A stretch of 46,061 nucleotides of DNA from a virus: positions 1 through 46,061 of IMG/VR virus record IMGVR_UViG_3300037245_001880; one strand, given 5' to 3'. Shown here piece after piece: positions 5,410 through 46,061 of the stretch. The notes under the pieces were generated by a model. That model was not told where the DNA came from. It saw only the letters and a list, made by a program, of their open reading frames with translations, and ran no database searches. Positions within the stretch are counted from its first letter, which is position 1; the number at the start of each line of letters is the position of its first letter. The position numbers and the translations under genes are program-made.

Positions 5410-5543
5410 TTTTTCTTACAATATATTAGAATTACCCAATATAAAAGTTGAGTCAGTATTATACCAACGTTACCAGTTTTATCATATATTAAGAATGTTA
5501 ATATGGCTATAGATGCTGCTCTAATACAATTCCAGGTTTTCAT
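5406..5543 (-). CDS. Small membrane protein (45 aa)
   Basis: The product begins MKTWNCIRAASIAILTFLIY, has a second hydrophobic segment VGIILTQLLYWVILIY and ends CKKK. It therefore looks like a two-segment membrane hairpin. A GAGGA SD lies about six bases before the ATG. Both ends overlap neighbours by four bases (ATGA). It sits directly after the acetyltransferase gene. Function is unknown. Confidence 0.65.
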   Translation of the reverse strand: MKTWNCIRAASIAILTFLIYDKTGNVGIILTQLLYWVILIYCKKK

Positions 5544-6166
5544 TTTTTCCTCGCTGGTCTACCGCGTTTTTTGGGTGTTGTACTTTCTGCGAGGTCTTTA
5601 GTAATTTTTAATACATTTTCGTTAATGAGAATACGTCCACTTTCATCTGCTTTAACAAGTACTTTTATCGGCTCATTCACAGACTTTATCTTATTTTCGT
5701 GACAATCCCCCTTAATAATACCATTCTTTGTTTCACCGGCTTTAATATTGGCAAGTACTACACTCCCAGCACCAACTCTAGCACCTTTTCCAATTCTACA
5801 TGGTGCCACTATTACAACACCAGCACAGATTATTACGCCATGGCCAATATACGTTTTATCTGGTATAAATTCCCCTTTTTCTTCTCTTTCAACGATATCT
5901 CGCGGGTCATGGTGATTAGTAAATGTTACATTTGGGCCGATAAACACACCTTTGCCAATCACTACACCGTCAAATACGCTTACATTGTTCTGTATTCTGG
6001 TATCATCTCCTATAGTAGCAGTACGGGCAACATAACAAAAGGAACCTATCATAACATTTACCCCAATTTCTGCCCCCTTTACGATATGAGAATATCGATT
6101 TATAACCGCTCCATTCTCTAGACGCTTGATGTTTTGACCTGTAATAATTTCATACTCTGTTTGCAT
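5540..6166 (-). CDS. Hexapeptide-repeat sugar N-acetyltransferase with AT-hook-like tail
   Basis: This 208-residue protein folds mainly as a left-handed beta helix: repeated [IV]-G-x4 units run from about residue 28 to 150 (GAEIGVNVMIGSF, ATIGDD, VVIGKGVFIGPNVTFTNHHDPRD, CRIGKGARVGAGSVV). The NHHDPR segment is typical of WbpD/WlbB-like enzymes that acetylate the 3-amino group of UDP-2-acetamido-3-amino sugars. The last 40 residues are not part of the enzyme fold: SGRILINEN, also found in the gene at 6901, is followed by KKRGRPARKK, an AT-hook-like motif. Its start is four bases after the dehydrogenase gene, which suggests a shared pathway. The exact substrate is inferred from family. Confidence 0.85.
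   Translation of the reverse strand: MQTEYEIITGQNIKRLENGAVINRYSHIVKGAEIGVNVMIGSFCYVARTATIGDDTRIQNNVSVFDGVVIGKGVFIGPNVTFTNHHDPRDIVEREEKGEFIPDKTYIGHGVIICAGVVIVAPCRIGKGARVGAGSVVLANIKAGETKNGIIKGDCHENKIKSVNEPIKVLVKADESGRILINENVLKITKDLAESTTPKKRGRPARKK
5615..5641. repeat. 27-bp direct repeat, copy 1 (encodes SGRILINEN)
   Basis: Bases 5615-5641 match 7138-7164 at 26 of 27 positions. Both copies are read in the same frame and encode SGRILINEN in two otherwise unrelated proteins. The 1.5 kb between them holds the body of the acetyltransferase, the dehydrogenase and the 3' part of the gene at 6901. Confidence 0.85.
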
Positions 6167-6169
6167 TAT

Positions 6170-6904
6170 TTACCCCTTTGGTGTTTTGTGAAAATGTGTA
6201 ACACAGTAAAGTATTGTTCTTTCCCACGCTACGATAATTCTAGTAATTAGATTGTCTACCAGATGAATATTAGGTCGTAGACAATGCCCTCCTGGTAGTT
6301 CGTCAGTCATTTCATTAAACTGCGTTCTTCTCCAACCCCAGTGTTTTATCTCGATACCAGCATTGTAATTGTCTGTCCAGCGATGATATACGTTATTAAA
6401 ACTGAACCCTAATTTTTTGCATTGTCTAGAAAGTTCTTTATTATATATCAACTCCCAATACATGCGAGTAGTAGACATTATTTTGCTAAATTCTAGTTCA
6501 TCAGTATCTTCGTTCCAATACTCACAATTAAAATTAAACTCTTTTTTGACAACTGCGTATAAATCAAGAGAGCCGGCAAACATTTTACGATACAATTTAG
6601 AATTATTTTCAAAATCATCGCTATGCCTACCCAAAACAGGACTATATAAGCAATTGAATTTTTTAGATGTTCCTGGTTTTACGGTGGAATGTATCACCAT
6701 TATTTTTGGTTTAAATACCTCAACCGCTTTTATGATAGTCTTATCAAATTTTTTGCTATAAGGTATGCAGATATGCAAAATATCACAATCTACTTCGTTA
6801 TATTCCCATTCGCCAACATCAAACATGTCTGTATGGCTTTTAAGAGCATATTTAATAACGGAACCGACTTGGCCAGCCCCCAAAATACAGTTAATCATAC
6901 TCAT
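6170..6904 (-). CDS. UDP-sugar dehydrogenase-like protein (short form)
   Basis: This 244-residue protein has a Rossmann N-terminus with GAGQVG, then CDILHICIPYS and HSTVKPGTSK, all typical of UDP-glucose/GDP-mannose dehydrogenases. The central helical domain follows (ELEFSKIMSTTRMYWE, NKELSRQCKKLG). A GGHC motif near residue 211 matches the catalytic Cys region of the UDP-ManNAc dehydrogenase (WecC) type. The C-terminal UDP-binding domain of full-length enzymes (usually over 400 residues) is missing, so activity on a UDP sugar is uncertain. It lies next to the acetyltransferase and overlaps the upstream gene by four bases. Confidence 0.8.
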   Translation of the reverse strand: MSMINCILGAGQVGSVIKYALKSHTDMFDVGEWEYNEVDCDILHICIPYSKKFDKTIIKAVEVFKPKIMVIHSTVKPGTSKKFNCLYSPVLGRHSDDFENNSKLYRKMFAGSLDLYAVVKKEFNFNCEYWNEDTDELEFSKIMSTTRMYWELIYNKELSRQCKKLGFSFNNVYHRWTDNYNAGIEIKHWGWRRTQFNEMTDELPGGHCLRPNIHLVDNLITRIIVAWERTILYCVTHFHKTPKG

Positions 6905-8760: not shown

Positions 8761-8762
8761 AA

Positions 8763-9772: not shown

Positions 9773-10019
9773 ATAAGCTCCTTTTATGTTTCTCCGCTGC
9801 CTTAAAGGCTTCTCTATAGCTGCTATATTTTTTAGAATGTATAGTCCCACTTTCTCGCTCAACTGCATTACCAAAAGCGCGATATTTTTTGCGTGTTTTG
9901 GCATCCCAAAAAGTGTCCTTTTTATACAATCTAACACCGTCATAGTTAACTGCTTGATATTCTCCGCAATCTGATTCAAATAACTCTATATAGTGCACTA
10001 TTTTCTTACGAAAGATCAT
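9765..10019 (-). CDS. Basic hypothetical protein (84 aa)
   Basis: The product begins MIFRKKIVHYIELFESD and has a repeated Arg/Lys-Tyr character (WDAKTRKKYRAFGNA, HSKKYSSYREAFKAAEKHKRS). The C-terminal helix resembles AP2/integrase-type DNA-binding arms, but this is not a firm match. Its 3' end overlaps the radical SAM start by eight bases. The SD of the radical SAM gene lies within its last codons. Confidence 0.6.
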   Translation of the reverse strand: MIFRKKIVHYIELFESDCGEYQAVNYDGVRLYKKDTFWDAKTRKKYRAFGNAVERESGTIHSKKYSSYREAFKAAEKHKRSLYA

Positions 10020-20527: not shown

Positions 20528-21618
20528 ACTTGTACCTCGATTGCAACCAATTTAACACTGTTATCATTATAATTTATCTCTGTCCTGAATAATTCGAACA
20601 CTTTTTTATCCCAACTTTCGGCACCAAATGTAATAGTGAAATATGTCTCTAAATCTATCCAATTTTCATTTGTTCCCTTTAACGAAAAGTTAATTAACCA
20701 CGGGGCGCGGGGTTCTGTACCAACATTGATATGAGTACGGTTAATATAACATTCTCCAACATATTGAGCACCTACAAGAGATGTATAATATATCTGTGAA
20801 TCAATACCCGCACTTGTAAACCCCGGTAGGTCATGCTCTCCGAAATATTCCTCGCTTTTACTCACAGAGCCTATATTATTAGTATCTGTTATGGGTGTAC
20901 CGGCATCACCACTATAATATATCTGAAATTGGTTTATTATCTCGCTCTCTGTATCTGTAACAAATGGCCTCGTTTTTAGCTCTTTTTCTTTGATATTAAC
21001 CTTCACACCGCCAGCAAACACAGTCCAGTGCTTGAAAAATACTTTCCCGAAACTAGTAAAAGCATCTGCACACCCAAATTCAGCCAATTTCTCTATTGCT
21101 GCCATAACCGTTACGGAGTCTTCCTCTGTTATATTTACTCTAACATAACAGCTATTGGTATCTAGTACGTCAATTGATCTTTGCATTGATGCCGTATCGT
21201 AATCTATCCCGTATGTATCCATTATATTTTGTGCTGCTGTAGCAGGGGTTTCGTCTGCACTACTAGAATATATTATTTTTTGGTTCCACTTTTTGTGGAG
21301 CTTTGATATAGTGATAATTTTGGCCGTTCCCGATTCGTGATCTCGTGTGATATTTCGTATAATACCGTCCCATATGAGGTCGCCATCTGAATTATAGATT
21401 TTTAGTGACTTATAACGCCATTTAATGTCCTTAAAATAGCTATCCGGATTATCTACCGAGTAAAAATTCTTATAATTTTTAACAGTCAATGAGAATTCCG
21501 AGTTTATGAGTTTATCCCTGGAAAAGGTTTTTTCCTCGACTACGTTTATTATCTTGTCTACATGCCCCGCTGCAAATATATCGAAGTCATCTAATATTAT
21601 AATTTTGGGGTCAGCCAT
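20524..21618 (-). CDS. Tail hub/baseplate-like protein
   Basis: This 364-residue protein has features of the siphophage hub or tail-associated protein: an N-terminal MADPKIIILDDFDIF, repeated NSEFSLTVKNYKNFYS and DGIIRNITRDHESGTAKIITIS strands and a later AAQNIMDTYGIDYD domain like gpD/gp27-type hubs. It overlaps the beta-helix gene by one base and precedes the tip protein. It probably joins tail tube and fibre, but I cannot show a precise family. Confidence 0.65.
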   Translation of the reverse strand: MADPKIIILDDFDIFAAGHVDKIINVVEEKTFSRDKLINSEFSLTVKNYKNFYSVDNPDSYFKDIKWRYKSLKIYNSDGDLIWDGIIRNITRDHESGTAKIITISKLHKKWNQKIIYSSSADETPATAAQNIMDTYGIDYDTASMQRSIDVLDTNSCYVRVNITEEDSVTVMAAIEKLAEFGCADAFTSFGKVFFKHWTVFAGGVKVNIKEKELKTRPFVTDTESEIINQFQIYYSGDAGTPITDTNNIGSVSKSEEYFGEHDLPGFTSAGIDSQIYYTSLVGAQYVGECYINRTHINVGTEPRAPWLINFSLKGTNENWIDLETYFTITFGAESWDKKVFELFRTEINYNDNSVKLVAIEVQV

Positions 21619-24600
21619 TAGATTTCCTCCAAATACATTTTAAAACCGGTTTTCCACTCGTTTTTTTGAAAGAAGAATCTTGGTTGTCCATATCTCATAT
21701 CTGGGCTTAATACGTGGCATTCTATAAAGCGTACAACCCAGTCATAGGTACCATCTATTAGTTCGCTGTCATCATCTTCGAGGGTTAAAATAGTATCGTC
21801 GTTCTCTAATATTTTGAAATACTTCTCAATACTCCAATCTATACTAGATACTGTTGCTATCGTATCATTGGGGTCTGATAGTGTTAAAACAGTTGATGTA
21901 TTGCTAACAATAAAATAATAATAACCATTATAAGGAAAAGAATATCCTATCCATTCGTCGATAGTCCACCCTGCCCCCGCTACTGTTAATGTCTTGGCTA
22001 TATTTAAATTACCGTTGCCCGTATTATTATCAAACTTAACACCAGCGTGGTAGCCCCTCAGTTCATCCTCTACGAGACTTTTGGCACTGTCCGTTATAGT
22101 CTTACCAGTTTGGTCTGTTATAGCCCCTGTGCCGCTGTCTATCTGTTGTGTAGGTAATGGGTTGAATCTTACTATTACTCCATCGTCTGATCTGGACTTA
22201 TCGGCACGCTGATATAGGCTGTTAAAAAACTCTACTTTGAGTCTATCGGTATCGTCTGTATATTGACCAGTAGGCCAGCTTAAGTCAAATCCTCGTCTAC
22301 GCCCCTTACTCCAATTCCACTGGGTTCCGGTGCCACTGTTAAAGCTTTTATTGCCTTTTGAGTTAATGAGGTACTTTACTACCCTAGGGTTATATGTAAA
22401 CGTGTGTTTTTTCCAAAAGTCAGAACCTATGGTTCTCGCGATGGCATATACCCCCACATCTCCACCATCACTTGCTGAATCTTTACACGCTGAATTATAA
22501 CTATCTCCCCTTTCTGTAGTTTTAATATTAAAATTTTCACTTCCTACATTTGTATTTACAAATAATGGGTTATTAGTAAAATTTGTAGGTGAGCTTACAT
22601 CTACTAGGATGCTAACACCATCAGTAATACAGCAATATGTAATATTGGTTAGCACTTCGGAATAAATACCATTTATATTATTATTGTGAAAAATAGAATT
22701 TACAATTATAAGACTTGAAGAATCAAAGCCCAAATACAAGCCATATTTATTATTATAAAAATTATTATTAGAAAACGTACTAATGGTATGGTTAGAATAA
22801 ACACCACTAATAGTATTATTATAAAAATTATTTTCGCTTACAATATTTCCTCCATATTTTAAAATTAGTCCCTCACCATTATTATGTATTAAATTATTAT
22901 TGATAATCGCATCAAGGTCTATATTATTGTCGTATAAATCAACCGCCATGCCTTGATTATCATAAATATTACACCACTTAATATTAGTTCCTGTATGATT
23001 TACTGTGTCTAAAATATAAATAGAATTATTATATTGTTCCTGTGCGTCTATTTTAACACCGTTTATTACTACGTCCGATGCATCAATCTCTATAATTCTA
23101 AGGTTTGCCCCCATATTATCAAGTGCTAAATCAGCTCTATAACAAGGACTATCCTCTGAAATACCTAACTGAAATGGTGATGTATCTTTACAAAATTGCG
23201 GGTCTGTTGTTATATTTGTGCCTCCTGCTGTCCATCCACTATTAGTACCATAATTACTATTAGTTATTACTGGAGCTGCTGCACCTGTACCAGTATCAAA
23301 CAAGTCAAAAAGACTACTACTATAAATAATATTATTTTTATATGTTCCATTATCTGTCGCAGTAGCGTTAATTTCTGAATATATGCCGTAACCATTATTA
23401 TAAACAGTATTATTTGCTACTGTTCCACTATAAGTTATTCCTACCGATATAGTTAAATAGACGCCATTTCCAAGACAGTTAAATATCTTATTATTGGTTA
23501 TACTTATTGAATTTGCAGATGTACAGTTAATATTTATTCCATTTCCACTAATATTCTTAATTATGTTTTTTTCTACTGTCATTGAATTTGGAGCTGTTAA
23601 CCACATTCCACCTATACAGTTTATTATTAAATTATTATTTATTGTACTTCCGTTATTGTTTATTACCTGTAATCCAGCGACACTATTATTAGAGTTTTCA
23701 AAGGTATTATCAGAAATTGTTCCCGGATAATTTCCTATTCCTATATCTAAGCAACTATCTGTTGAACCTCTCCTATCAATAGTCCAGCCATGAACATCTA
23801 TATTAGCATTTTGTATACTTATTCCTTGAAACATTTTAGGAGTATAACCATATTCAGGCTCGAATATAAACGGTTGTGTCGGGTTTAAGGCTTCATTAAA
23901 AACACCACCTATCACGGTAGCACCATTTCCACCATAAATAAGATTATATGATTTACCCTCTGCTGCTGGCCGAGCCACAGCAATAGTTAAATATGGATTC
24001 TGCCACGTCCCCCCCCCCGCTCCGTTGACGCCATTTTCATTAAAGAAAACGGCATTAAGATTTTGGTGTACTTGTGATATTTCTCTTGTAACTCTAGCAC
24101 CTACACCCCTTGTGAACGTTGGCGATTGTCCGGCAGATGAATATATACTAATCCCCGCTTTCCCCTGTACTTGTTTTTCGTCATAATTTTCAGAGTCAAG
24201 CGTTTCAATTCCATCGTCATGACTGGCTGCTACTGCTGCATAGGCTGCCGCTTGCGTAAAATAAGGAAGCGTATTATCTCCCAATACAGGAGTGTGTCTT
24301 ATTCCCCCATGCCTCATGGAAGGATCATAATAGGTGCTTCCTGTATCAGACATATAATATGTTCTTGAATTTCCATCAGTTATTATCTCTGCTAAGAATA
24401 GTGTTGTAATTGCACCACGTACGGGAAATGTTATTACAAGTGATGGGTCAACTGTTATGTCTCCTCCATTAGCCTTAATTACAATATACACACCCTGTGC
24501 TGTTACCGTCCCCCCAGGGGTGTGCCCCGCGCCTTGATTTGTTAATAATAATGTTCCATCAAGAGCATATACTTTGGTTTCTTGATTTATGTCTTTTGTT

Positions 24601-24815
24601 GCTGAAAATATAGAGTCACAACCGATAACAGATAATTGCTTTCCAAACTTCCTAACATATGCTATATCTCCAGCTGGGGTTGGTACCACTCTTAATGGGG
24701 TATCGTCCGGATATAATGACAGAAAATCCGCATCTGTACCGACTTGGTTAGTGGGGGTATTATTATAATTAGTCTGGTGTAAATAATTTAAGTTTATCTT
24801 TTCATTGGTAGTCAT
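21618..24815 (-). CDS. Large parallel beta-helix tail protein (tail spike-like)
   Basis: This 1065-residue protein has an N-terminal tail region (about 1-200) and two right-handed parallel beta-helix blocks, rich in Asn and Ile/Val ladders (about 270-560 and 580-800). Each closes with a similar DP/NP-x-F segment (TTDPQF, TNNPLF). The C-terminal 240 residues (about 820-1065; for example KYLINSKGNKSF, RGFDLSWPTG, GYSFPYNGYYYF) look like a separate tail-attachment domain. Parallel beta helices in phages often bind or depolymerise polysaccharide. It sits between the tape measure and the hub. Its Asn-rich coding shows as many AAT codons. Confidence 0.78.
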   Translation of the reverse strand: MTTNEKINLNYLHQTNYNNTPTNQVGTDADFLSLYPDDTPLRVVPTPAGDIAYVRKFGKQLSVIGCDSIFSATKDINQETKVYALDGTLLLTNQGAGHTPGGTVTAQGVYIVIKANGGDITVDPSLVITFPVRGAITTLFLAEIITDGNSRTYYMSDTGSTYYDPSMRHGGIRHTPVLGDNTLPYFTQAAAYAAVAASHDDGIETLDSENYDEKQVQGKAGISIYSSAGQSPTFTRGVGARVTREISQVHQNLNAVFFNENGVNGAGGGTWQNPYLTIAVARPAAEGKSYNLIYGGNGATVIGGVFNEALNPTQPFIFEPEYGYTPKMFQGISIQNANIDVHGWTIDRRGSTDSCLDIGIGNYPGTISDNTFENSNNSVAGLQVINNNGSTINNNLIINCIGGMWLTAPNSMTVEKNIIKNISGNGININCTSANSISITNNKIFNCLGNGVYLTISVGITYSGTVANNTVYNNGYGIYSEINATATDNGTYKNNIIYSSSLFDLFDTGTGAAAPVITNSNYGTNSGWTAGGTNITTDPQFCKDTSPFQLGISEDSPCYRADLALDNMGANLRIIEIDASDVVINGVKIDAQEQYNNSIYILDTVNHTGTNIKWCNIYDNQGMAVDLYDNNIDLDAIINNNLIHNNGEGLILKYGGNIVSENNFYNNTISGVYSNHTISTFSNNNFYNNKYGLYLGFDSSSLIIVNSIFHNNNINGIYSEVLTNITYCCITDGVSILVDVSSPTNFTNNPLFVNTNVGSENFNIKTTERGDSYNSACKDSASDGGDVGVYAIARTIGSDFWKKHTFTYNPRVVKYLINSKGNKSFNSGTGTQWNWSKGRRRGFDLSWPTGQYTDDTDRLKVEFFNSLYQRADKSRSDDGVIVRFNPLPTQQIDSGTGAITDQTGKTITDSAKSLVEDELRGYHAGVKFDNNTGNGNLNIAKTLTVAGAGWTIDEWIGYSFPYNGYYYFIVSNTSTVLTLSDPNDTIATVSSIDWSIEKYFKILENDDTILTLEDDDSELIDGTYDWVVRFIECHVLSPDMRYGQPRFFFQKNEWKTGFKMYLEEI

Positions 24816-29998: not shown

Positions 29999-31003
29999 CT
30001 ATAAAGGCATACTCGTAGCTACGGTGTTGTATGATAACACAGTAACAAGTGCGGTGGTTGCCTGTTTAAATCCCATCCCGGCCATTGTCAATTCCATAGT
30101 TGCTACTTCAGCATTAAGAGGAATTTGGATAGGTGTTAGTCTTACTTTTGGTACAGATACTTGCAATCGTCTCTCACTGATACCAGTACCACTTTTAAGA
30201 TTTATAATGACGTTGCCATCACTAAATGAACTCGAAGGAGTGGTGGCAGCATTATAATTAGCCTTGGCATATAGTTGATAATCGGTATAATTTAGACCAA
30301 TTGTAACCTCTGCTTCAAATCTATGGTTGATAATATCGTGTCGTGTTAATGCTACTGTTTGATTTTCTTCGTCATTTATTGCACGTAACGAGATATTAAA
30401 TGACTTAATATCGAAATTTGAAGTTGAGGATTGATTAACCATATATGTACCAGAATAGAAACTAAACGGGTTGCCTGTTTCATATGTTGGTGAGCTTTCT
30501 GTGGTGATTAGTTTTAAATAAAGACCTGTTCCTTCAACGGTTAATTTAACGGGTTGTCCTGCTTCAGCTTCCATACTGATAGCTGATAACTTAACACCAG
30601 AAAATTGTTCAACCTTACTATTTGTAGAACTAACCAACATACGCTCTACCGTTAGCCATGGTTGAACAGGTGTGGTTACTGCAAACTCTTTAGGTACGAT
30701 TGTGTGATGAAAAGGTGTAGTAGTTAAATTACTTGGTGTATCACTGCCAAGTAAGGCAGCAAATAGGTTGGTAGACTCGATGGGCCTTGCATAACAACTA
30801 AAATTTACCGGTGCTGTATAAATAGTTTTTACGCTTGATTTATCATATTGTCCATCTCCTCCCTCTCGTAATGTTTGAGCTTCAAATGTTGGTCCACTTT
30901 CATCTGATAAATATTTGATGAAATTCTGTGGTACTACTGCTGTGGTCTTGGCTGTTCCTTGGCTGCCTATTCCGATATAGCCCTGGTTCGATGGAAAATA
31001 CAT
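29999..31003 (-). CDS. Tail tube protein, first copy
   Basis: This 334-residue protein begins MYFPSNQGYIGIGSQG, with GGDGQYD, FSCYARPIES and PWLTVERMLVSS. It is the paralogue of the gene at 28968 and has the features of a tube-forming protein: beta-rich, few charged helices, no Cys cluster. It follows two small linker-type genes in the usual position between the tail terminator and the chaperones. One of the two copies is likely to be the main tube protein. Confidence 0.8.
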   Translation of the reverse strand: MYFPSNQGYIGIGSQGTAKTTAVVPQNFIKYLSDESGPTFEAQTLREGGDGQYDKSSVKTIYTAPVNFSCYARPIESTNLFAALLGSDTPSNLTTTPFHHTIVPKEFAVTTPVQPWLTVERMLVSSTNSKVEQFSGVKLSAISMEAEAGQPVKLTVEGTGLYLKLITTESSPTYETGNPFSFYSGTYMVNQSSTSNFDIKSFNISLRAINDEENQTVALTRHDIINHRFEAEVTIGLNYTDYQLYAKANYNAATTPSSSFSDGNVIINLKSGTGISERRLQVSVPKVRLTPIQIPLNAEVATMELTMAGMGFKQATTALVTVLSYNTVATSMPL

Positions 31004-31323
31004 TATTTGTTCCCTCCTTTTTTAATAGGTTTTTTAATAGGTTTTTTAATAGGTTTTTTAATAGGTTTTTTAATAGGTTTTTTGGTCTCTTTTTTAATAA
31101 TTTCTTCAACAATTTCATGTGTTGTTTTTAGTTTATCTTGTTGTACTGTTTTTAGTTTATCATGCTCAACTTCTGGCTCTTCGTAAGAAGGTTCAAAATC
31201 GTTATCATTTAACGCGGCTTCCTCACTGAGTAAACTTGTAACTTCGCCTGTCAGTATTAAACTACCATCATAGAGCCTAATTTCATCTATACCAATATAC
31301 TTGGCGCCCTTATACTTTTTCAT
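31003..31323 (-). CDS. Small protein with Lys-Lys-Pro-Ile repeats
   Basis: This 106-residue protein starts with a domain (YIGIDEIRLYDGSLILTGEV) similar to that of the gene at 31310, continues with an acidic middle (EEPEVEHDK) and ends in five KKPI repeats (encoded at 31024-31083), a basic rod-like tail. Its function is unknown. It may decorate or link the tail. It overlaps the tube gene start by one base. Confidence 0.7.
   Translation of the reverse strand: MKKYKGAKYIGIDEIRLYDGSLILTGEVTSLLSEEAALNDNDFEPSYEEPEVEHDKLKTVQQDKLKTTHEIVEEIIKKETKKPIKKPIKKPIKKPIKKPIKKGGNK
31024..31083. repeat. Five tandem 12-bp repeats (KKPI)
   Basis: The plus strand has five exact copies of aataggtttttt in tandem; on the minus strand they encode Lys-Lys-Pro-Ile. 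Perfect identity, including codon choice, suggests recent slippage. Copy number is likely to vary between relatives. Confidence 0.95.
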
Positions 31324-31503: not shown

Positions 31504-31989
31504 TCAACTGAATGTGCCATGATGTTTAACAGTGATATTCAGCCAAACTTCTTGTTTGAATGTATTACCATCTGTCATCATTGGCGTGTAGTTTGCGCTA
31601 TTGGTTTGTATTCCTATTACTTGATCGCTGATAGTGCGATTATCTATGATTATTTTTTCAATTGCTCTTGTAAATCGATATGATCGCTTGGCACACTCTG
31701 AAGTATCACCATATTTAGAAACATTGTGGACCTTAATAATAATATGATGGTCCTTTTCATCCCAATTACCACCAGGAATTATCGTATCGCTTGTATTGGG
31801 CACGAACTGGATAAAAGGAAAACCTGCTATAGCATCTATTTCGCTATCAATATAATTCTTTGCCACGGGGGCTTCTAATACCACATTGTCCGCTTTTTCG
31901 GTATTGATAACCGTTAATGCTGCCGGTAATTCTGTCTCTATAAGTGTATGAACTATATCGAGTGTTTCTTCTATGTATTTAAAAGACAT
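31504..31989 (-). CDS. Tail terminator/completion-like protein
   Basis: This 161-residue protein begins MSFKYIEETLDIVHTLIE and has the alternating alpha/beta pattern of phage tail completion proteins (FIQFVPNTSDTIIPGG, HHIIIKVHNVSKYGDTSE, YRFTRAIEKIIID). It lies after the gpG-like gene and before the tube genes, where lambda gpU-type terminators are found. I infer that it caps the tail. Its ATG overlaps the gpG-like stop by one base. Confidence 0.65.
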   Translation of the reverse strand: MSFKYIEETLDIVHTLIETELPAALTVINTEKADNVVLEAPVAKNYIDSEIDAIAGFPFIQFVPNTSDTIIPGGNWDEKDHHIIIKVHNVSKYGDTSECAKRSYRFTRAIEKIIIDNRTISDQVIGIQTNSANYTPMMTDGNTFKQEVWLNITVKHHGTFS

Positions 31990-32477
31990 TATTTAACCTT
32001 CCCAATCATAGTATCAAGATATGTACTCATGATTTTTCTCATTCTATTAGCTTCAGACTTCAATATACTTATTAACGGACGGGGTGGTAATCGGCTTTGT
32101 TCTTTTCCTCCCCCGCGTTCTTTGGTACCAAAATGCTGGGCCAATGCATATTTTATTTTAGTCCCTAATGTTACTTCTCTTTTACTTGGGTTGTATATCG
32201 TTCCTGTAGTCATAGAAGTAAGTGTCTTTTTTAGGTCTCCACTTCTCACCATTATTGGCTTACCAGGATAATGTTTGGCTTTCCATGCTGCATATCCTGG
32301 GCTTAATGGTCGCCATCTTCCTTTATTTGAAGTTTCAAATCTCTTTTTTTCGATACGGTAAAATTCATCTCTTATAGCCGGCCACACTGGCATAAGGTTC
32401 GCAAATCCTCTTCGTAATTTAATTATACCATTCTTGATCTTGGCCATGCCCTTAAGTTCATACTTAATTTTAGTCAT
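31989..32477 (-). CDS. Virion morphogenesis protein (Mu gpG / phage tail S-like)
   Basis: This 162-residue protein matches the Mu-type virion morphogenesis family: PVWPAIRDEFYRIEKKRFET, KGRWRPLSPGYAAWKAKHYPGKPIMVRSGDLKKTLTS, and late FGTKERGGG and LPPRPL. Such proteins act at the head-tail joint. Its presence supports the Mu-like head assembly type. It overlaps the epimerase gene end by eight bases. Confidence 0.9.
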   Translation of the reverse strand: MTKIKYELKGMAKIKNGIIKLRRGFANLMPVWPAIRDEFYRIEKKRFETSNKGRWRPLSPGYAAWKAKHYPGKPIMVRSGDLKKTLTSMTTGTIYNPSKREVTLGTKIKYALAQHFGTKERGGGKEQSRLPPRPLISILKSEANRMRKIMSTYLDTMIGKVK

Positions 32478-33474
32478 TTATTACATCCACAATATTCTTT
32501 GCAGCGTTGCCATTGCCATATGGGAGGGTTCTTATAGCACATAATTCAGTCTTAATATTAAAACATATTTTATCTTTATCTATCGGAGTTAATCTATTGG
32601 CACCGCATTCTACACTTTCCACCCACTCTGTTTCGTCTCTTAGTGTGATACATGGTACATTTAGCATATGGGCTTCTTTCTGAAGTCCTCCGCTATCAGT
32701 AATAATTTTACAGGCATTAGCAGCGAGACCCATCATTTCCATATATCCCACCGGTTCGATAAACTCAACATTTGGGTGTATATCAAATTTTATTAGATTA
32801 TGCATAGTTCTGGGATGACAAGGAAAAATGATTTTTTTATCTAATTCATTGAGGGCCGAAACTATAATATTTAGATTCTCTTTATTATCGACATTAACTG
32901 GGCGGTGAAGAGTAAGAAGGTAGTAATCATCATAAGTTTTTACGAATTTATCCCTATTCTTTTTTATTAGATCGTACATTGTGTCTCCACAAAAATATGT
33001 ATTATCCCTTTTACCTTCAGATATTAAATTATTAAAAGCATGTAGTGTTGGGCATATTAACACATCTGCTATTTTGTCAGTTATAATACGGTTTATTTCT
33101 TCAGACATATCCATATTATTAGACCTTAAGCCCGCTTCAATATGTACCAATTTAATATTACACATCTTTGCCGCGAGCGCACCGGCTAGAGTACTGTTTG
33201 TGTCACCATATACAATAATACAATCCGGTTTTTCTATTATCATAATATTACACAAAGGAGTAAGCATTTTTGCCACTTGATTTGCATTACTACCACCGTT
33301 GATATCAAGATTATAGTCTGGCTTCCTAATATCAAGATCGTCAAAAAATACATCACTCATGTTTTTGTCATAGTGCTGCCCAGTATGAACTAATACGTCA
33401 TTTGTAAGCAATTTTAGCACCGGTGATGCTTTTATAAATTGTGGTCTGGCTCCCAAAATAGTTAGTGTCTTCAC
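32470..33474 (-). CDS. UDP-N-acetylglucosamine 2-epimerase (non-hydrolysing)
   Basis: This 334-residue protein is a clear member of the WecB/WbpI family. Motifs: GARPQFIKASPVL (about 8-20), LVHTGQHYDKNMSDVFF (about 29-45), YGDTNSTLAGALAA, HIEAGLRSNNMDMSEEINR and TLHRPVNVDN, followed by DSGGLQKEAHML and GNGNAA at the end. It converts UDP-GlcNAc to UDP-ManNAc or a related pair. The enzyme is complete, with its conserved substrate residues. It is inserted in the late operon between head-tail genes, overlapping both neighbours. A sugar dehydrogenase (6170), an acetyltransferase (5540) and a glycosyltransferase (35090) are also in the genome. Confidence 0.93.
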   Translation of the reverse strand: MKTLTILGARPQFIKASPVLKLLTNDVLVHTGQHYDKNMSDVFFDDLDIRKPDYNLDINGGSNANQVAKMLTPLCNIMIIEKPDCIIVYGDTNSTLAGALAAKMCNIKLVHIEAGLRSNNMDMSEEINRIITDKIADVLICPTLHAFNNLISEGKRDNTYFCGDTMYDLIKKNRDKFVKTYDDYYLLTLHRPVNVDNKENLNIIVSALNELDKKIIFPCHPRTMHNLIKFDIHPNVEFIEPVGYMEMMGLAANACKIITDSGGLQKEAHMLNVPCITLRDETEWVESVECGANRLTPIDKDKICFNIKTELCAIRTLPYGNGNAAKNIVDVIND

Positions 33475-33929
33475 CAGTCGTCCTCCTCTCTATTAAATGG
33501 CTCATTCTCTCTCTGGGTTGAAATATCGCTATACTCTAAACTATCCATAGATGCCCCGCTGGTACCGTCTATAACTCCTATTAGAATACTGGGGTTATCT
33601 TCAATAGCCATCATGGCTTTTTCATACGCTTTACAGAGTATTTCCGCATGGTTTGACTCATTTTTATTACCACCCATGAAAGTGGCATTTTCAGTAATAC
33701 ACGCGGCTTTCATACTTGCTAATTTATTCACATATAAGTACGCTGCATGAGTTGGACTTGTGGTGATTGGTACTGTAATACCCACGGCAGCAAACCGGCT
33801 ATTCATCTCACCCGTGACAGATGGAATATAATAGCTGGTTATTTGTATTAGTTTTGGTGTACTAGTAGTATCATAGGTTCGGTGTGCGTTTAAAGCACGA
33901 ATGTGTCCAATAGTAGCATATTCCGACAT
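33471..33929 (-). CDS. Head-tail connector-like protein
   Basis: This 152-residue protein begins MSEYATIGHIRALNAHRTYD. It is mainly helical: IQITSYYIPSVTGEMNSRFAAV, THAAYLYVNKLASMKAACI, NHAEILCKAYEKAMMAIED, with an acidic end. Size, helix content and position after the head genes fit a gp6-like adaptor that joins the portal. AAGGA lies just before the start. The epimerase overlaps its end by four bases. Confidence 0.6.
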   Translation of the reverse strand: MSEYATIGHIRALNAHRTYDTTSTPKLIQITSYYIPSVTGEMNSRFAAVGITVPITTSPTHAAYLYVNKLASMKAACITENATFMGGNKNESNHAEILCKAYEKAMMAIEDNPSILIGVIDGTSGASMDSLEYSDISTQRENEPFNREEDDW

Positions 33930-33933
33930 GGTT

Positions 33934-34104
33934 TTATTCCTTACTATTATTTACTCTATAGCCAAAAAGATTAAGTATATAAAACATTCCTAAATCTTTG
34001 CCGTTTTTGTCCGTTAGTTCTAAGTAACCATCTGTTGTGTCATGTTCGAAACATTCTATAGTTACTATATTTCCATCAGTACAATATATTGTTATTGTTT
34101 CCAT
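33934..34104 (-). CDS. Small hypothetical protein (56 aa)
   Basis: The ATG at 34104 follows directly on the TAG of the upstream gene. The product begins METITIYCTDGNIVTIEC and ends FGYRVNNSKE. It reads as a small beta-rich unit. It is in the inserted block that includes the glycosyltransferase and methyltransferase. Function unknown. Confidence 0.6.
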   Translation of the reverse strand: METITIYCTDGNIVTIECFEHDTTDGYLELTDKNGKDLGMFYILNLFGYRVNNSKE

Positions 34105-34365
34105 CTAAACGACCCTCTCATAAGTTTTTTCAAAAATGTCTGGCTTACATGGATAAAACTCTCCATTTATACCTTTAATAATATAATCACCGACTGATGC
34201 AGTCATAATACCCTCTAAAGTTGGTATCTCAATCTTAATGGGAGAGATTGACCAATTAGAAATATCTGCACCAAGGTCTATTAGTCCAGATTTAATCCAT
34301 GTGTCTTGTTCTTCATCTCTAAACAAAATTGCATCAATAACAACTGGTTTTTTTCTGTATTTCAT
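34105..34365 (-). CDS. Common phage protein of the PGDYI/EFYPCKPDIF type
   Basis: This 86-residue protein begins MKYRKKPVVIDAILF and ends with GDYIIKGINGEFYPCKPDIFEKTYE, a pattern seen in many phages of diverse hosts. Function is unknown. The ATG at 34365 has GGAG seven bases before it and overlaps the stop of the methyltransferase (ATGA). It is a small ubiquitous phage gene and supports the view that the block was formed in phages. Confidence 0.85.
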   Translation of the reverse strand: MKYRKKPVVIDAILFRDEEQDTWIKSGLIDLGADISNWSISPIKIEIPTLEGIMTASVGDYIIKGINGEFYPCKPDIFEKTYERVV

Positions 34366-35087
34366 TTTATCACTCCACAAATTACTATGTATTGCTCGAA
34401 TTTTTCAACCGTTTTAAACTTCATTAACCGGCCATATTTTTTGGTAACAGAATCAATGCTATATTCTCTTACATGAGTAACATCTTGTCTCTCTTTCTCG
34501 AAAGGCACTGTGGCATAGACAGTACAGCCCTTGGGTAGTTTATCCAGTAATTCGATATCACCATCAATGTGTTCTAATACTTCAGTTATTATGGCAACTT
34601 CACAACCGGCATAATCATAATCATAGATATCTACTATTTCAAATTCAATCGCTGGGTACAATCTACGCGCATGAAAGAGGATGGCTAGTTTAGAGAAGTC
34701 TATCCCTTTTATATCCCTAGATACATTAAAATAGAGCATATCAGAGAACCAACCAACACCGCAACCGATATCAATAAACTTTTTATTCATCTCTTTATTT
34801 TCTACCATCATTTTAATTAAGTGTATTGCGAGGTTTTGATAACACCCCCAATTATAACCGTACTTGTAACGTAGACTATAGATATCGGCTCCGAATTCTT
34901 TTATTATTCTCTCGCTCTCTCGCTCCTGATCTTCCTCAATTTTTATTATATTTTTTTTGGTTTTTCTAATTTCGTCTTGTGAATTAGTTATATTTTTTAC
35001 AATTTCTAATGTTTTAATATCTTCCAATTCTCCTACTGCTTCAATATATTCCTCTTTCTCTTTTACATTCATTTTTGTTTCTTCCAC
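34362..35087 (-). CDS. SAM-dependent methyltransferase (small-molecule or sugar type)
   Basis: This 241-residue protein starts at a GTG preceded by AGGAG. Its N-terminal 65 residues form a charged coiled-coil-like helix (RKTKKNIIKIEEDQERESERII). The methyltransferase domain follows: FIDIGCGVGWFSDML (SAM site), GIDFSKLAILFHARR, EVAIITEVLEHIDGDIELLDKL. It lacks the NPPY motif, so it is not an adenine DNA methyltransferase; it fits class I enzymes acting on small molecules, sugars or proteins. It lies just after the glycosyltransferase, so its substrate might be a glycan. Confidence 0.82.
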   Translation of the reverse strand: MEETKMNVKEKEEYIEAVGELEDIKTLEIVKNITNSQDEIRKTKKNIIKIEEDQERESERIIKEFGADIYSLRYKYGYNWGCYQNLAIHLIKMMVENKEMNKKFIDIGCGVGWFSDMLYFNVSRDIKGIDFSKLAILFHARRLYPAIEFEIVDIYDYDYAGCEVAIITEVLEHIDGDIELLDKLPKGCTVYATVPFEKERQDVTHVREYSIDSVTKKYGRLMKFKTVEKFEQYIVICGVIK

Positions 35088-35089
35088 GG

Positions 35090-36163
35090 TTAGACTCCTA
35101 TCTCGTCAAACGCTATTTTTAGTTGATTTTCCATTGTATATTTGTACCTTTTATTAAGTACATTCTTTTTGCAATTGGCCCAAAATTTAGCATCATGCCA
35201 GGGTACCTTATCAAGATTTTCTATACCTTGGACGCTTACACCAAATCCGTGTTTTACCACCCAATCACCAGCGGCTTTCGCATTGAGGCATATAATAGGT
35301 AATCCAGCAGCTATTGAGTCAAGCAACTTATTAGGGAAGCACATCTGTATTTCCGGACAATCCACATTACTGCCAACAAAGGCATAGTCATAGCGGGTGT
35401 ACTGATCTATAGCCGCGTACATTCTCATAGTGCCGTATGTACAGGCTCCAGCGAGTGTGTAAGGCATTAAATTAGCATTAGGTGTGGTATTGTATAGGTG
35501 ACTCGCTATACCTAGCTCTGTGAACTTCTGGAAGAGGGGTACACAGTCTCGATAATGTAGTTTACTGTTCATCTCTGGCACATTCACTTGACCGCAATAC
35601 AGAATACCATTTACGTGAGGTAGAGACTGTAGAGGAAAATACATTTCAGGGGCACATGAGTATGTTACTTTGATCTTGTTTTTACCCTTAATGGCAGGGT
35701 ATTTATCTTCAATTAGTTTGACATAATCGATAGTTGGTACAAATATAACCTCGCTTTTTTCTATAGCGTTCTTCTCTTGCGCGTTCATTTCTGGATTATC
35801 TTCATATCCTGGGTGGAGTGTGGGTAAGTCATGACAATCGTGCCACACCTGCCTATCTCTTTTTACGCTTGGTTCATTGGCAAGTTCGGCCATCAAGTCA
35901 GGCTCATTATGGCACCATATAATATCGGCATCACTATCACGCATGGCTTTTTCTAATTGGCTGGGTGTTTCCCAGATTTTAACATGATTAAATATATGGG
36001 CGGCCTGTAATTCAGTTACCAGACTAAATCCACCGGCTTTCGTTACAAGCTCTAGCTCATAACCTAGATTATAAGCAGCTACAGCCATTTTAATATTTCT
36101 TAAGCAGCAGAACCATGTTGCAATTAGTATTTTGGGTTTAGTATTCGTTTTAGTATTTGTCAT
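35090..36163 (-). CDS. Glycosyltransferase, GT-B fold (GT4-like)
   Basis: This 357-residue protein has the two-domain GT-B layout. The N-terminal part has KILIATWFCCLRNIKMAVAAYNLGYE and DADIIWCHNEPDLMA; the C-terminal sugar-nucleotide part has FPNKLLDSIAAGLPIICLNA, KHGFGV. The PNK-x3-S-x-AAGLP motif is typical of GT4 enzymes, which transfer a sugar from a nucleotide donor. No signal or membrane segment. It may glycosylate a virion protein or host surface glycan; position in the late operon favours the former. It overlaps the upstream gene by four bases. Confidence 0.85.
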   Translation of the reverse strand: MTNTKTNTKPKILIATWFCCLRNIKMAVAAYNLGYELELVTKAGGFSLVTELQAAHIFNHVKIWETPSQLEKAMRDSDADIIWCHNEPDLMAELANEPSVKRDRQVWHDCHDLPTLHPGYEDNPEMNAQEKNAIEKSEVIFVPTIDYVKLIEDKYPAIKGKNKIKVTYSCAPEMYFPLQSLPHVNGILYCGQVNVPEMNSKLHYRDCVPLFQKFTELGIASHLYNTTPNANLMPYTLAGACTYGTMRMYAAIDQYTRYDYAFVGSNVDCPEIQMCFPNKLLDSIAAGLPIICLNAKAAGDWVVKHGFGVSVQGIENLDKVPWHDAKFWANCKKNVLNKRYKYTMENQLKIAFDEIGV

Positions 36164-36717
36164 GCTGGCATTCCTTCCATAATCTGTGCCACAGTGGGAA
36201 TTCTGATAAATCTAGCGTCGTGTTTAATAAAATGGCGATCAATTGTTTTATTATCGATACCTACTTTAACCGTTTTTATATTCATTTTTATGAGTGGTAG
36301 GTTGCGATATTTACCGCCCACTAGGCACCGTACACCATAACCCAATCCGGCTAGTTCTGGCTCTACCTTTTTACAGTTGCTGCAATAAACCGTCTCTATA
36401 CCATTCCAACGAGTAATTTTGACATAATTGTGGTCGTGCAGTAGGCACCCGAGTTTTCTAATCAGTTTGTAAAAGAATATCATTGCTTTCTTGGCTACTC
36501 TTTTGAATTTTCTAACATATGTGCACGCGAGGATAAATGGGTATTCTGTATATGGGTTAAGTTTTCTGTCTTCTGTAAGTAACTTGTTTATCTCTGGTGA
36601 TACTATGATTTTTGGCAATGCTCGAGGACTATTAGCTTTTTTAATACAATCCTTTTGAAATTGTAAAATGTCCTTAATCGGATTAGATTTATTTTTCCAT
36701 CGTTTTCTGATATTCAT
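36160..36717 (-). CDS. DUF1660-like protein with zinc ribbon
   Basis: This 185-residue protein is very basic at the start (RKRWKNKSNPIKDI). It has the motif KLGCLLHDHNY-x12-YCSNCKK, which fits the DUF1660 family pattern of a Cys/His pair followed by a C-x2-C pair. The C-terminal 60 residues (NLPLIKMNIKTVKVGIDN) are unrecognised. Probably a zinc-binding phage protein. It overlaps the neighbours at both ends by four bases. Confidence 0.65.
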   Translation of the reverse strand: MNIRKRWKNKSNPIKDILQFQKDCIKKANSPRALPKIIVSPEINKLLTEDRKLNPYTEYPFILACTYVRKFKRVAKKAMIFFYKLIRKLGCLLHDHNYVKITRWNGIETVYCSNCKKVEPELAGLGYGVRCLVGGKYRNLPLIKMNIKTVKVGIDNKTIDRHFIKHDARFIRIPTVAQIMEGMPA

Positions 36718-37785: not shown

Positions 37786-38727
37786 CTAGCTTATTACAGT
37801 GGTTAGTAAGTATCCACAATCAACAGCGCAAACTTTTTGCACTTCATTAACTGTAGTACGTGCTATTTCACTATCTGTTTGATCTTCACGATATGTTTTA
37901 GCTTGTAGGCCATTTACCTGGATGTTATAACCAACAGACGGGCGCATAATGCCAGGAGTCTTGTTGATGTATCCCATAAATACCTTTTTAGACATCATGT
38001 CCGCCAGAGTTACATCCTGTCCCTCTTCCGCTGTATTATAAAGAGATTGAGAAATAAGTAGCTCTTCCATCTCAAATAATCGTTTAAGAAGGTCGATAGT
38101 TACGATAGTATCGGTAGTAGTTTTAATACGCGCTTTAATGTCTGAGTGTTCTTTGATTTTTAGCCAAACATCATACGGTAGTACCATCTTATTTGGTATA
38201 CGCCCGCAAGCCTTACGGATAACTTCCTTGTATTGGTCAACAATCCCAACAGGGTCAGAATTATTATTGTCCCATCTATCGCCAACAGCGAGTGCAGCGG
38301 TTTGGGATGACCATACGGTTGAATCAGTAATTGCACTAATAACGCGGTTTTCACGTCTTAATAGTATAACCTGTGCAGCAGACTCGGCCGCTGTTCGTCT
38401 TGGGTTATATGGTTTCAGTGCGTTTGCCTGTACTCGATCGTCTACAGCTATTTCCCATCCGTCTTGGATAGTTTGATAGGTGTCTGTTCCAATAAATAGT
38501 TGACCACGGCCATACTTAGTTCCAGGCGCGCGCTCTGTTTTATTGGGAAGTGTGAAGAACCCTTTACTATCCTTAAAGGTGTAAAAGGTGCCAGATTCAC
38601 CGCTTGGTGCGGCAATTGATGGAAACAACTTATCAGCTATAAAGCCATCTGTCTCCTGTGAATACTGTATAACGAATTGTGTTAACAGTGGGTCTACTGG
38701 GTGTACGTTTTTCTTTCCTAATGCCAT
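37786..38727 (-). CDS. Major capsid protein
   Basis: This 313-residue protein begins MALGKKNVHPVDPLLTQFVI and has FIADKLFPSIAAPSGESGTFYTF, an extended region (ERAPGTKYGRGQLFIGT) and later GRIPNKMVLPYDVWLKIKEHSDIKARI and VFMGYINKTPG. The pattern is that of Mu-like and related phage capsid proteins with an HK97-type fold. Position downstream of protease/scaffold and decoration gene is classic. AGGAG lies before the ATG. Confidence 0.88.
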   Translation of the reverse strand: MALGKKNVHPVDPLLTQFVIQYSQETDGFIADKLFPSIAAPSGESGTFYTFKDSKGFFTLPNKTERAPGTKYGRGQLFIGTDTYQTIQDGWEIAVDDRVQANALKPYNPRRTAAESAAQVILLRRENRVISAITDSTVWSSQTAALAVGDRWDNNNSDPVGIVDQYKEVIRKACGRIPNKMVLPYDVWLKIKEHSDIKARIKTTTDTIVTIDLLKRLFEMEELLISQSLYNTAEEGQDVTLADMMSKKVFMGYINKTPGIMRPSVGYNIQVNGLQAKTYREDQTDSEIARTTVNEVQKVCAVDCGYLLTTVIS

Positions 38728-39170: not shown

Positions 39171-39761
39171 CTATAATTGATACTTGGCTGTGTATGCTTC
39201 AGCTAGCTTTGAGTTTTCGGCACAAACTAATGTGACAGCTTCATCAAAAGTGCATTTTGATTCTGCCATTTTTTTGTTGGCCTCAACTACCATCTGAGTT
39301 CCAGGGTCATCGGAAAGATTTTGCTCTTCACCTTTGCCAGCACTACCCTTCTCGTCCAGGTCGACGATTTTAGACATTTTTAAGAGGTCTTCTTTAACGT
39401 TCACGGGGTCTGCCATGTAGCGTTTTTCATAATATTCCTTGTCCTTGGGTAGCAATTTACCATCGGTAATCGCTTTGTTAATGGCCTCATCTCTGTCTCT
39501 CTCATTGAGTTTGACTTCGAGGTCTCCCACTTTTTTATTGGAATCTTCCAATTTCTTGGCCACTTCCGTATCTGTCAAGGTTTTCTTGCTATTTTCCTTG
39601 TCTGCGAGTTCTTTGGCTTTCTTTGCTTCAGCTTCAATTTTTGTAACTTTCTCACCCAATCCCTTATTGGAAGTAAGAAGCTCGTCAATCTTGGCTAAAA
39701 TAGAATCCTCAGAGGCATCGGCAGATAGGCCGAATTTTTCAACTAATTTTTCATTTTCCAC
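39171..39761 (-). CDS. Nested scaffold protein from an internal start (predicted)
   Basis: Within the protease gene, AGGAG followed eight bases later by an in-frame GTG (codon 291) would start a 196-residue protein. It begins V-E-N-E-K-L-VEKFGLSADAS, is mostly coiled coil (DEAINKAITDG, KKLEDSNKKVGDLEVKL, LEKF-type heptads), and ends at the same stop. Nested scaffolds made from internal starts are known in Mu (gpI/gpZ) and other phages. The scaffold guides capsid assembly and is cleaved by the protease. Confidence 0.7.
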   Translation of the reverse strand: MENEKLVEKFGLSADASEDSILAKIDELLTSNKGLGEKVTKIEAEAKKAKELADKENSKKTLTDTEVAKKLEDSNKKVGDLEVKLNERDRDEAINKAITDGKLLPKDKEYYEKRYMADPVNVKEDLLKMSKIVDLDEKGSAGKGEEQNLSDDPGTQMVVEANKKMAESKCTFDEAVTLVCAENSKLAEAYTAKYQL

Positions 39762-40631
39762 TGTATGTGCTCCTAATTTTTTATTTGGTAACTTCTTAAC
39801 GCTCTTGGGTGTCTGCCTACCTTGAATATTATCAGCCTTTGGGCCTACTTTCTCGGGGCTACCTTTAATTGTTAATTCGGATAATTTGTATTCTGCCATT
39901 CCTCTATTATCGAGTACTGCTGTTTCGTCTATGATAGAGGGCATGGTCTTAAGAAACGGGATATTGGTTGCAGCACCACCCCGTAAAACATTTTTAAACT
40001 CTTTTTGTGTCTCTGGGTCTTTATATGAACCCCATGAAGGAGAAAAATAACGGTAAGTCCTTTTTGATAATATACTTTGCCCTAATTCTGTATAATCCGG
40101 TTTAATATAGAGTCCCAAACCTGGGCGAATAAAGGGAGAAGAATCAAACCATGCGAGGGATTTATTTTCATCATGCTGCATATCCATGAAGGGCTTCACA
40201 TGTAGGACATTTGCCTGGTAATTATCAATTATCTCATTAAAAAAATTATTGTCAAACGTCATCTTTCCGTACGATGGATGCTCGAATTCTCCAAACGGAA
40301 AAAGCATGATATCTTCTTTGGGTTCTGCTCCATTGTCTGTTAATTGTAGACCGTCTGTCCATATATTCATTGTTCCCATTTTACATTTATTCCTTATATT
40401 TTTACTACCTCGTCTTCCATGACTTCTACCATGTTTTTTTGCATGTTCCTCTTTAGTAAGCGGCTCCATATTACCTGGACTATTGTCCACATTATTACCA
40501 TTTTTATGATGTATCTCTTTACCCTCTATGGCTTTTTCACCAAATACTTCCTTTGCCTTGGCTCTAGTTCGGGCTCGTATGGCTCTTTCTTCAGACTCAA
40601 CGGCAAGTGGGGTTCCTTTAGGTAATGGCAT
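39171..40631 (-). CDS. HNH motif fused to capsid protease and scaffold
   Basis: This 486-residue protein has three parts. Residues about 1-85 carry an HNH nuclease signature (EIHHKNGNNVDNSPGNM and LTKEEHAKKH). Residues about 88-275 match Mu gpI-type protease: NIWTDGLQL, HVKPFMDMQHDENKSLAW (catalytic His) and YRYFSPSW (catalytic Ser). Residues about 290-486 form the scaffold. A methionine at 85, preceded by AAGGA, could start the protease alone. The HNH part resembles a mobile nuclease fused in frame with the head gene. AAGGA lies before the first ATG. An assembly error could also join two genes, so the fusion needs checking. Confidence 0.85.
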   Translation of the reverse strand: MPLPKGTPLAVESEERAIRARTRAKAKEVFGEKAIEGKEIHHKNGNNVDNSPGNMEPLTKEEHAKKHGRSHGRRGSKNIRNKCKMGTMNIWTDGLQLTDNGAEPKEDIMLFPFGEFEHPSYGKMTFDNNFFNEIIDNYQANVLHVKPFMDMQHDENKSLAWFDSSPFIRPGLGLYIKPDYTELGQSILSKRTYRYFSPSWGSYKDPETQKEFKNVLRGGAATNIPFLKTMPSIIDETAVLDNRGMAEYKLSELTIKGSPEKVGPKADNIQGRQTPKSVKKLPNKKLGAHTVENEKLVEKFGLSADASEDSILAKIDELLTSNKGLGEKVTKIEAEAKKAKELADKENSKKTLTDTEVAKKLEDSNKKVGDLEVKLNERDRDEAINKAITDGKLLPKDKEYYEKRYMADPVNVKEDLLKMSKIVDLDEKGSAGKGEEQNLSDDPGTQMVVEANKKMAESKCTFDEAVTLVCAENSKLAEAYTAKYQL

Positions 40632-45934: not shown

Positions 45935-46061
45935 CTACGTCACTAGCTACTTCAATAGATTCGGGGTGACGGGAATCGAACCCGTAACGCATAGATTACT
46001 ATCGCTCTGAGCCATTGAGCTACACCCCTACTGCATTACTTAATGCCAAATAATCTTTTAA
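45935..46061. repeat. Terminal direct repeat, right copy
   Basis: Identical to bases 1-127. It holds a second view of the tRNA-like element (45961-46029, minus strand) and the start of the overlap with the small gene of 102-374. It should be removed once when the circle is closed. Confidence 0.95.

Follow-up and report, generated by a model that had tools for sequence, protein, structure and literature searches.

The window analyzed here, the whole 46,061-nucleotide IMG/VR record IMGVR_UViG_3300037245_001880, is one complete phage genome, with an exact 127-bp terminal repeat and a 12.4-kb IMG/VR contig (L052), 100% identical, that spans the terminal join. Its minus strand holds both terminase subunits, the portal, a head protease, the major head protein, tail completion and tail proteins, a tape measure, and a large beta-helix protein, and with them five genes resembling enzymes of sugar-nucleotide synthesis and transfer, all of them open frames where an earlier note on this DNA had placed them. 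A glycosyltransferase, a methyltransferase, and a uridine diphosphate (UDP)-sugar 2-epimerase are embedded among head-tail genes, and a left-handed beta-helix (LbH) acetyltransferase and a short dehydrogenase form an adjoining pair that precedes the terminase genes by a few kb (Table 1). The earlier note had treated 32470-36163 as sugar genes, which holds for the epimerase, methyltransferase, and glycosyltransferase; the span also contains two non-sugar genes, at 33471 and 34105. We propose, tentatively and with somewhat less than even confidence, that the five form a trimmed phage cassette for UDP-2,3-diacetamido-2,3-dideoxy-mannuronic acid (UDP-ManNAc3NAcA), with the host supplying two steps and the virions being glycosylated late.

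Table 1. Features of the window; the five putative cassette genes come first, and functions and substrates are predictions
Feature	Position	Strand	Observations
LbH N-acetyltransferase, WlbB/WbpD-like (3-amino UDP-sugar)	5540..6166	-	Hexapep E 7.7e-22
Short UDP-sugar 6-dehydrogenase-like protein, GGHC motif	6170..6904	-	NAD domain and central helical domain; no C-terminal UDP-binding domain
Non-hydrolysing UDP-sugar 2-epimerase, WbpI/WlbD-like, predicted substrate UDP-GlcNAc3NAcA (see text)	32470..33474	-	GTG start; overlaps both neighbors
Class I S-adenosylmethionine (SAM)-dependent methyltransferase, possibly a sugar O-methyltransferase (putative target)	34362..35087	-	E ~3.5e-5; 62-66% identical in sisters
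GT4-like soluble glycosyltransferase	35090..36163	-	77% identity in sisters; among the most conserved genes compared
Tail completion / Neck1 protein	31989..32477	-	Phage_tail_S E 2e-8; PHROG 26 'tail completion or Neck1' 1.6e-13; overlaps epimerase end by 8 bases
Conserved open reading frame (ORF) between methyltransferase and epimerase, probably head-tail connector (from position only)	33471..33929	-	Overlaps epimerase start by 4 bases
Small ORF, PHROG 419, between methyltransferase and connector	34105..34380	-	No match at that place in sisters
ORF between 36714 and glycosyltransferase, function unassigned	36160..36717	-	No match in sisters
Major head protein	37786..38727	-	Candidate glycan acceptor
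Tail protein, PHROG 290	29999..31003	-	Candidate glycan acceptor
Large right-handed beta-helix protein, probable tail spike or fiber	21618..24815	-	

The epimerase matches PF02350 over its full length (E 1.8e-92) and TIGR00236 (wecB) at 270.5 bits against a cut-off of 210, and as a member of the non-hydrolysing UDP-N-acetylglucosamine (UDP-GlcNAc) 2-epimerase family it keeps K17, D98, E120, E132, and H208 (Thermus numbering). The name given to it in the earlier note, UDP-GlcNAc 2-epimerase, is right as to family but probably wrong as to substrate, to judge from the residues of the pocket. In a comparison of the T. thermophilus 2-epimerase for UDP-2,3-diacetamido-2,3-dideoxy-glucuronic acid (UDP-GlcNAc3NAcA) with UDP-GlcNAc enzymes, an Arg that is conserved in the latter is replaced by Trp307, Leu/Met by Ala18, and His/Gln by Tyr96 (Thoden et al., 2023; PMC10622841); in UDP-GlcNAc enzymes the Arg contacts the C3'-OH, and the other two positions lie on the C6' side. 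The window epimerase and its ortholog in a sister contig have Ala18, Tyr96, and Trp307, plus Gln14, as in the T. thermophilus enzyme; the E. coli WecB pocket has Met, His, and Arg, with Glu at the position of Gln14, and that of the M. jannaschii UDP-GlcNAc enzyme has Leu, Gln, and Arg. The Arg, Leu/Met, and His/Gln of WecB proper are therefore all missing from the window epimerase, whose residues are of the WbpI/WlbD type and which equals the Thermus enzyme at 21 of 22 ligand and catalytic positions. The T. thermophilus enzyme is also the top solved-structure match (280.8 bits), but because the M. jannaschii UDP-GlcNAc epimerase follows closely (275.8 bits), our argument rests on the pocket residues, not on score: the epimerase probably acts on UDP-GlcNAc3NAcA rather than UDP-GlcNAc. 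Other phage epimerases (in L006, L007, L009, L013, and L014) combine Ala18 and Tyr96 with Arg or His where Trp307 would stand, and for such mixed pockets the known enzymes give no guide to the substrate. An INPHARED protein search with the epimerase gave matches of 29-34% identity in 19 records, of which many are short, unannotated, or bacterial-looking; the Aphanizomenon 'phage' Yong-DA, in which an epimerase adjoins a DegT gene, was dropped as a precedent, since it carries ParA/ParB and a polysaccharide export gene and is possibly a plasmid.

The acetyltransferase has WlbB (3mqg) as its nearest solved relative by sequence (E 7.2e-18), followed by 7s43 (2.3e-16), with other LbH enzymes weaker. 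In the Wlb/Wbp pathway, the N-acetyltransferase WlbB makes the substrate of the UDP-GlcNAc3NAcA 2-epimerase, and the LbH enzyme of the window would likely act one step before the epimerase in that same pathway. When the whole of each of 14 phage epimerase contigs was searched for LbH homologs, these occurred in 6/7 with Trp307 and 0/7 without it (one-sided Fisher 0.0023), and in 4/5 against 0/5 once near-duplicate contigs were collapsed (one-sided Fisher 0.024), an association resting on few independent lineages. Because of the epimerase pocket and the WlbB-like acetyltransferase, the likely product is UDP-ManNAc3NAcA rather than UDP-ManNAcA (the N-acetylmannosaminuronic acid derivative), and we regard a pathway of this type, toward UDP-ManNAc3NAcA or a close 3-acetamido relative, as quite likely.

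The dehydrogenase produced no Pfam match of its own (PF03721 fell below threshold), and its homolog in contig L008 matches the central UDP-glucose dehydrogenase domain just under the cut-off (E 3.5e-5). A profile of the family scores 96.6% against WecC (E 6e-10), with GGHC aligned on GGHC, and along its full length the AlphaFold2 (AF2) model (pLDDT 91.7) resembles UDP-sugar dehydrogenases (Foldseek E 1.7e-10), aligning with Cj1441 at Z 17 and 2.9 A over 229 residues, STV, ExxK, and GGHC included. The protein has the NAD-binding and central domains, and the catalytic Thr, Lys, and GGxC cysteine, of UDP-glucose/GDP-mannose dehydrogenases; a UDP-ManNAc (UDP-N-acetylmannosamine) dehydrogenase of P. 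horikoshii is among the top structural matches, and beta-hydroxyacid dehydrogenases rank close after the UDP-sugar dehydrogenases (Z ~15). By profile alignment and by fold, the earlier note's dehydrogenase with a GGHC motif belongs to the UDP-sugar dehydrogenase superfamily, and the enzyme appears to be a UDP-sugar dehydrogenase relative whose predicted activity is uncertain. The 26 phage homologs are similarly short, relatives in ~25 other phage contigs likewise ending before the UDP-binding domain, and the neighbors of the short dehydrogenase in 23 contigs, listed with no null model, include sugar epimerases/dehydratases, DegT enzymes, glycosyltransferases, and methyltransferases.

The earlier note had suggested a route from UDP-GlcNAc to a ManNAcA-type sugar, that is, a WecB/WecC-like conversion of UDP-GlcNAc to UDP-ManNAc and UDP-ManNAcA followed by transfer to virion or host. 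Such a route would ask nothing of the host beyond UDP-GlcNAc, and it draws support from the wecB match above cut-off, from the alignment of the dehydrogenase family with E. coli WecC through the GGHC motif, and from the P. horikoshii structural match. We nonetheless rejected it as first choice on the epimerase pocket, which agrees with the UDP-GlcNAc3NAcA enzyme, and not with WecB, at each of the three substrate-determining positions; it also leaves the WlbB-like acetyltransferase without a role and depends on a dehydrogenase without a UDP-sugar-binding domain, which in the pathway we favor would act first, on UDP-GlcNAc and not on UDP-ManNAc. Taken together, the WecB/WecC-like route seems improbable.

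The transfer step would fall to the glycosyltransferase, which the earlier note described, probably rightly, as GT4-like and placed, with the methyltransferase, upstream of the epimerase. The window protein itself has Pfam matches below threshold only (PF13439 E 0.02); we call it GT4-like because its sister ortholog, 77% identical, matches PF13439 (Glyco_transf_4; E 9.8e-6) and PF13579 (E 4.4e-4), these profile matches lying below curated cut-offs, with the C-terminal PF13692 where expected. An AF2 model built from three sequences (pLDDT 39) was not used, an hhalign comparison with a GT4 alignment from other phages was uninformative (Neff 1.2), scans of viral and genome contigs for further relatives returned the two sisters or nothing, and INPHARED protein searches with the glycosyltransferase and with the dehydrogenase found no relative. 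Methyltransferase homologs adjoin the epimerase or the dehydrogenase in L004, L037, L038, and L040.

The epimerase lies complete between head-tail joining genes, as had been noted. It overlaps both, so its translation is probably coupled to that of the head-tail block, and the overlap of starts and stops implies that these genes are expressed together and late. In the sister contigs L002 and L003, the glycosyltransferase, methyltransferase, connector, epimerase, and tail completion genes keep the same order at 53-82% protein identity. In L003 the dehydrogenase (61%) and the LbH enzyme (66%) are present too, as adjacent genes preceding the terminase; L053, a shorter contig and the third relative, carries the LbH gene (59%) ahead of the portal. 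The conserved co-occurrence for which the earlier note had asked a search is thus found, for the block in two sisters and for the dehydrogenase and acetyltransferase in one of them. In every cassette gene divergence is mainly at third codon positions (p3 0.53-0.57 against 0.13-0.24 at second positions, p2), a pattern shared with the capsid and tail genes. The glycosyltransferase (77%) is better conserved than the capsid (66%) and equals the best-conserved large tail gene. Such conservation indicates that the cassette genes are kept for a function. That they are instead passengers, degraded host-derived genes with no phage function, would fit a set incomplete for any full pathway, but the intact frames, the third-position-dominated divergence, the synteny among relatives sharing only 53-82% identity, and the 21/22 retained ligand residues contradict it and make it very improbable.

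Larger versions of the gene set exist in other phages. Within a stretch of ~10 kb that precedes a virion structural gene, L008 encodes a short dehydrogenase, two LbH proteins, a DegT aminotransferase, a Gfo/Idh oxidoreductase, a WbpI-like epimerase (Trp307 is present, the remaining two pocket positions being Leu and Phe), a GT2-methyltransferase fusion, a second GT2, and a GT4, so that candidates for all five WbpA-B-E-D-I steps stand in one run with glycosyltransferases. The fusion protein (L008:6858-9041) has its GT2 domain N-terminal and its methyltransferase C-terminal, is the fused counterpart of the adjoining glycosyltransferase and methyltransferase genes of the window, and has homologs in L010, L012, and L015. 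Several genes of the pathway set also occur in L010, L012, L015, L023, and L024.

From these elements, the following pathway may be proposed. The short dehydrogenase would help form the 6-carboxylate on UDP-GlcNAc, as WbpA does, which is the weakest link; C3 oxidation and amination (WbpB, WbpE) would come from the host; the LbH enzyme would N-acetylate the 3-amine (WbpD/WlbB-like); the epimerase would invert C2 (WbpI-like), yielding UDP-ManNAc3NAcA or a closely related sugar; and the GT4-like enzyme would transfer the sugar to a virion protein during assembly, where the methyltransferase may cap it. We favor a virion protein as acceptor because the glycosyltransferase, methyltransferase, and epimerase are soluble and are embedded in, and overlap, head-tail genes; given the pathway, this choice is rather probable, and it is the softest part of the proposal.

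Several observations weigh against this proposal. First, no DegT (WbpE) or Gfo/Idh (WbpB) gene occurs in the complete window genome, so either the host provides these two steps or the sugar is a different one. Second, the dehydrogenase ends at about residue 275-300 of WecC/Ugd, so that the C-terminal UDP-binding domain is absent, and in most of its family V, I, or A replaces the catalytic glutamate of the SPE/CPE motif (SPV/SPI/SPA, where WecC has CPE). Third, its gene and that for the LbH enzyme stand outside the glycosyltransferase/epimerase block, ~26 kb away on the linear map and ~16 kb around the circle. To these are added the nearly equal overall score of the M. jannaschii epimerase, the few lineages behind the Trp307 association, and the standing of the virion proteins as candidate acceptors.

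The main rival accepts the ManNAc3NAcA-type cassette and gives it another target: late in infection it would alter the surface polysaccharide of the host, its O-antigen or capsule, blocking superinfection or the re-adsorption of particles to debris. As the earlier note had held, a sugar-nucleotide and transfer set in the late operon leaves two serious targets, glycans of the virion and glycans of the host surface. Gram-negative O-antigens are known to contain ManNAc3NAcA (PMC10622841), a host making it would supply WbpB and WbpE, and nucleotide-sugar genes of groundwater phages have been interpreted in this way (PMC12911398). The window, however, gave no membrane-bound GtrA/GtrB/Gtr(type) proteins, as in Gtr-type serotype conversion, in protein-family scans, and its block shows no flippase or lipid-carrier transferase and no such Pfam family; no strong hydrophobic segment is present in the glycosyltransferase, methyltransferase, or epimerase; the same scans found no integrase, making lysogenic conversion unlikely; and a change late in lysis leaves little time for effect. 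We consider alteration of the host surface unlikely, if a serious contender. A third acceptor could be phage DNA, since phage glycosyltransferases that decorate DNA are known (cited in PMC12619734). No base-hypermodification family (thymidylate-synthase-like, hydroxymethylase, or other) was found in the protein-family scans, the genes sit in the head-tail block rather than among replication genes, and it would be unusual for such a system to have its own 2-epimerase and 3-N-acetyltransferase, so glycosylation of a hypermodified base appears most improbable.

No DNA-level relative was found among named phages in INPHARED, a genome-contig scan with the portal as query found no host or prophage relative, and a capsid scan from the single protein found nothing. 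The terminal repeat contains one tRNA-like gene (27-95 and 45961-46029, minus strand; Rfam 48.2 bits, no ARAGORN call) whose anticodon arm is apparently reduced to a 4-nt loop and which may be a non-decoding tRNA-like element. The head maturation protease ORF (39171-40631, minus strand) has an N-terminal HNH endonuclease-like domain at residues 28-78 and is ~100 residues longer than that of a sister. On the minus strand of the early region are a DUF5131/radical-SAM-like protein (9119-9979) and two DNA methyltransferase-like genes (12308-12949 and 8128-8802), possibly for anti-restriction; a small ORF directly before the PHROG 290 tail protein (31003-31323, minus strand) ends in a KKPI repeat.

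If the proposal is correct, a rare acidic sugar of bacterial surfaces is both synthesized and attached by phages, through a pathway hitherto described from the O-antigens of bacteria; virion glycosylation, demonstrated in mycobacteriophages, extends to further phages; and there is a reason for phages to keep sugar-nucleotide genes inside head-tail operons, with single enzymes that can be tested. A broader version, in which uncultured phages own a UDP-ManNAc3NAcA pathway that ranges from complete (L008) to trimmed and host-dependent (the window) and decorate their virions with a di-N-acetylated, possibly methylated uronic acid by way of a short dehydrogenase family of unusual domain architecture, is speculative and more doubtful. 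An annotation habit may also need correcting: phage matches to PF02350 or wecB are not all UDP-GlcNAc epimerases, and three residues distinguish them.

Parts of this system have precedents. The earlier note knew of no such set reported together; this stands insofar as we found no direct report of a phage 2-epimerase or of ManNAc3NAcA in phages in a limited open-access literature, but nucleotide-sugar genes, short dehydrogenases, and virion glycosylation are each known. The window resembles the UDP-ManNAc3NAcA pathway (P. aeruginosa WbpA-B-E-D-I, Bordetella Wlb, and the T. thermophilus HB27 homologs) in its WbpI-like pocket, WbpD/WlbB-like LbH enzyme, and UDP-sugar dehydrogenase relative for the first step, and differs in lacking WbpB and WbpE, in a dehydrogenase without the C-terminal domain, and in having its genes at two genome places. 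With E. coli WecB/WecC it shares two protein superfamilies, while all three substrate-determining pocket residues differ and the acetyltransferase has no place in that route. Groundwater phages, likewise uncultured, carry the O-antigen nucleotide-sugar genes galE, rmlB, rmlD, manA, gmd, and rmd, with no 2-epimerase or 3-N-acetyl pathway named (PMC12911398). The short 'UDP-glucose dehydrogenases' of Microbacterium phage Fireman and Campylobacter phage F379 (BFVD; 256-262 aa) are similar in fold and length to that of the window but only 12-13% identical, and are known by annotation only. Virion glycosylation is established in mycobacteriophages (Che8 gp110, Corndog gp38, and Myrna; Freeman et al., 2023, as cited in PMC12363180), where, as expected for the window, a phage-encoded glycosyltransferase would act on capsid or tail proteins; there the glycan has been shown by experiment, whereas that of the window is predicted, and the cited passages mention no dedicated sugar-nucleotide enzymes of this pathway.

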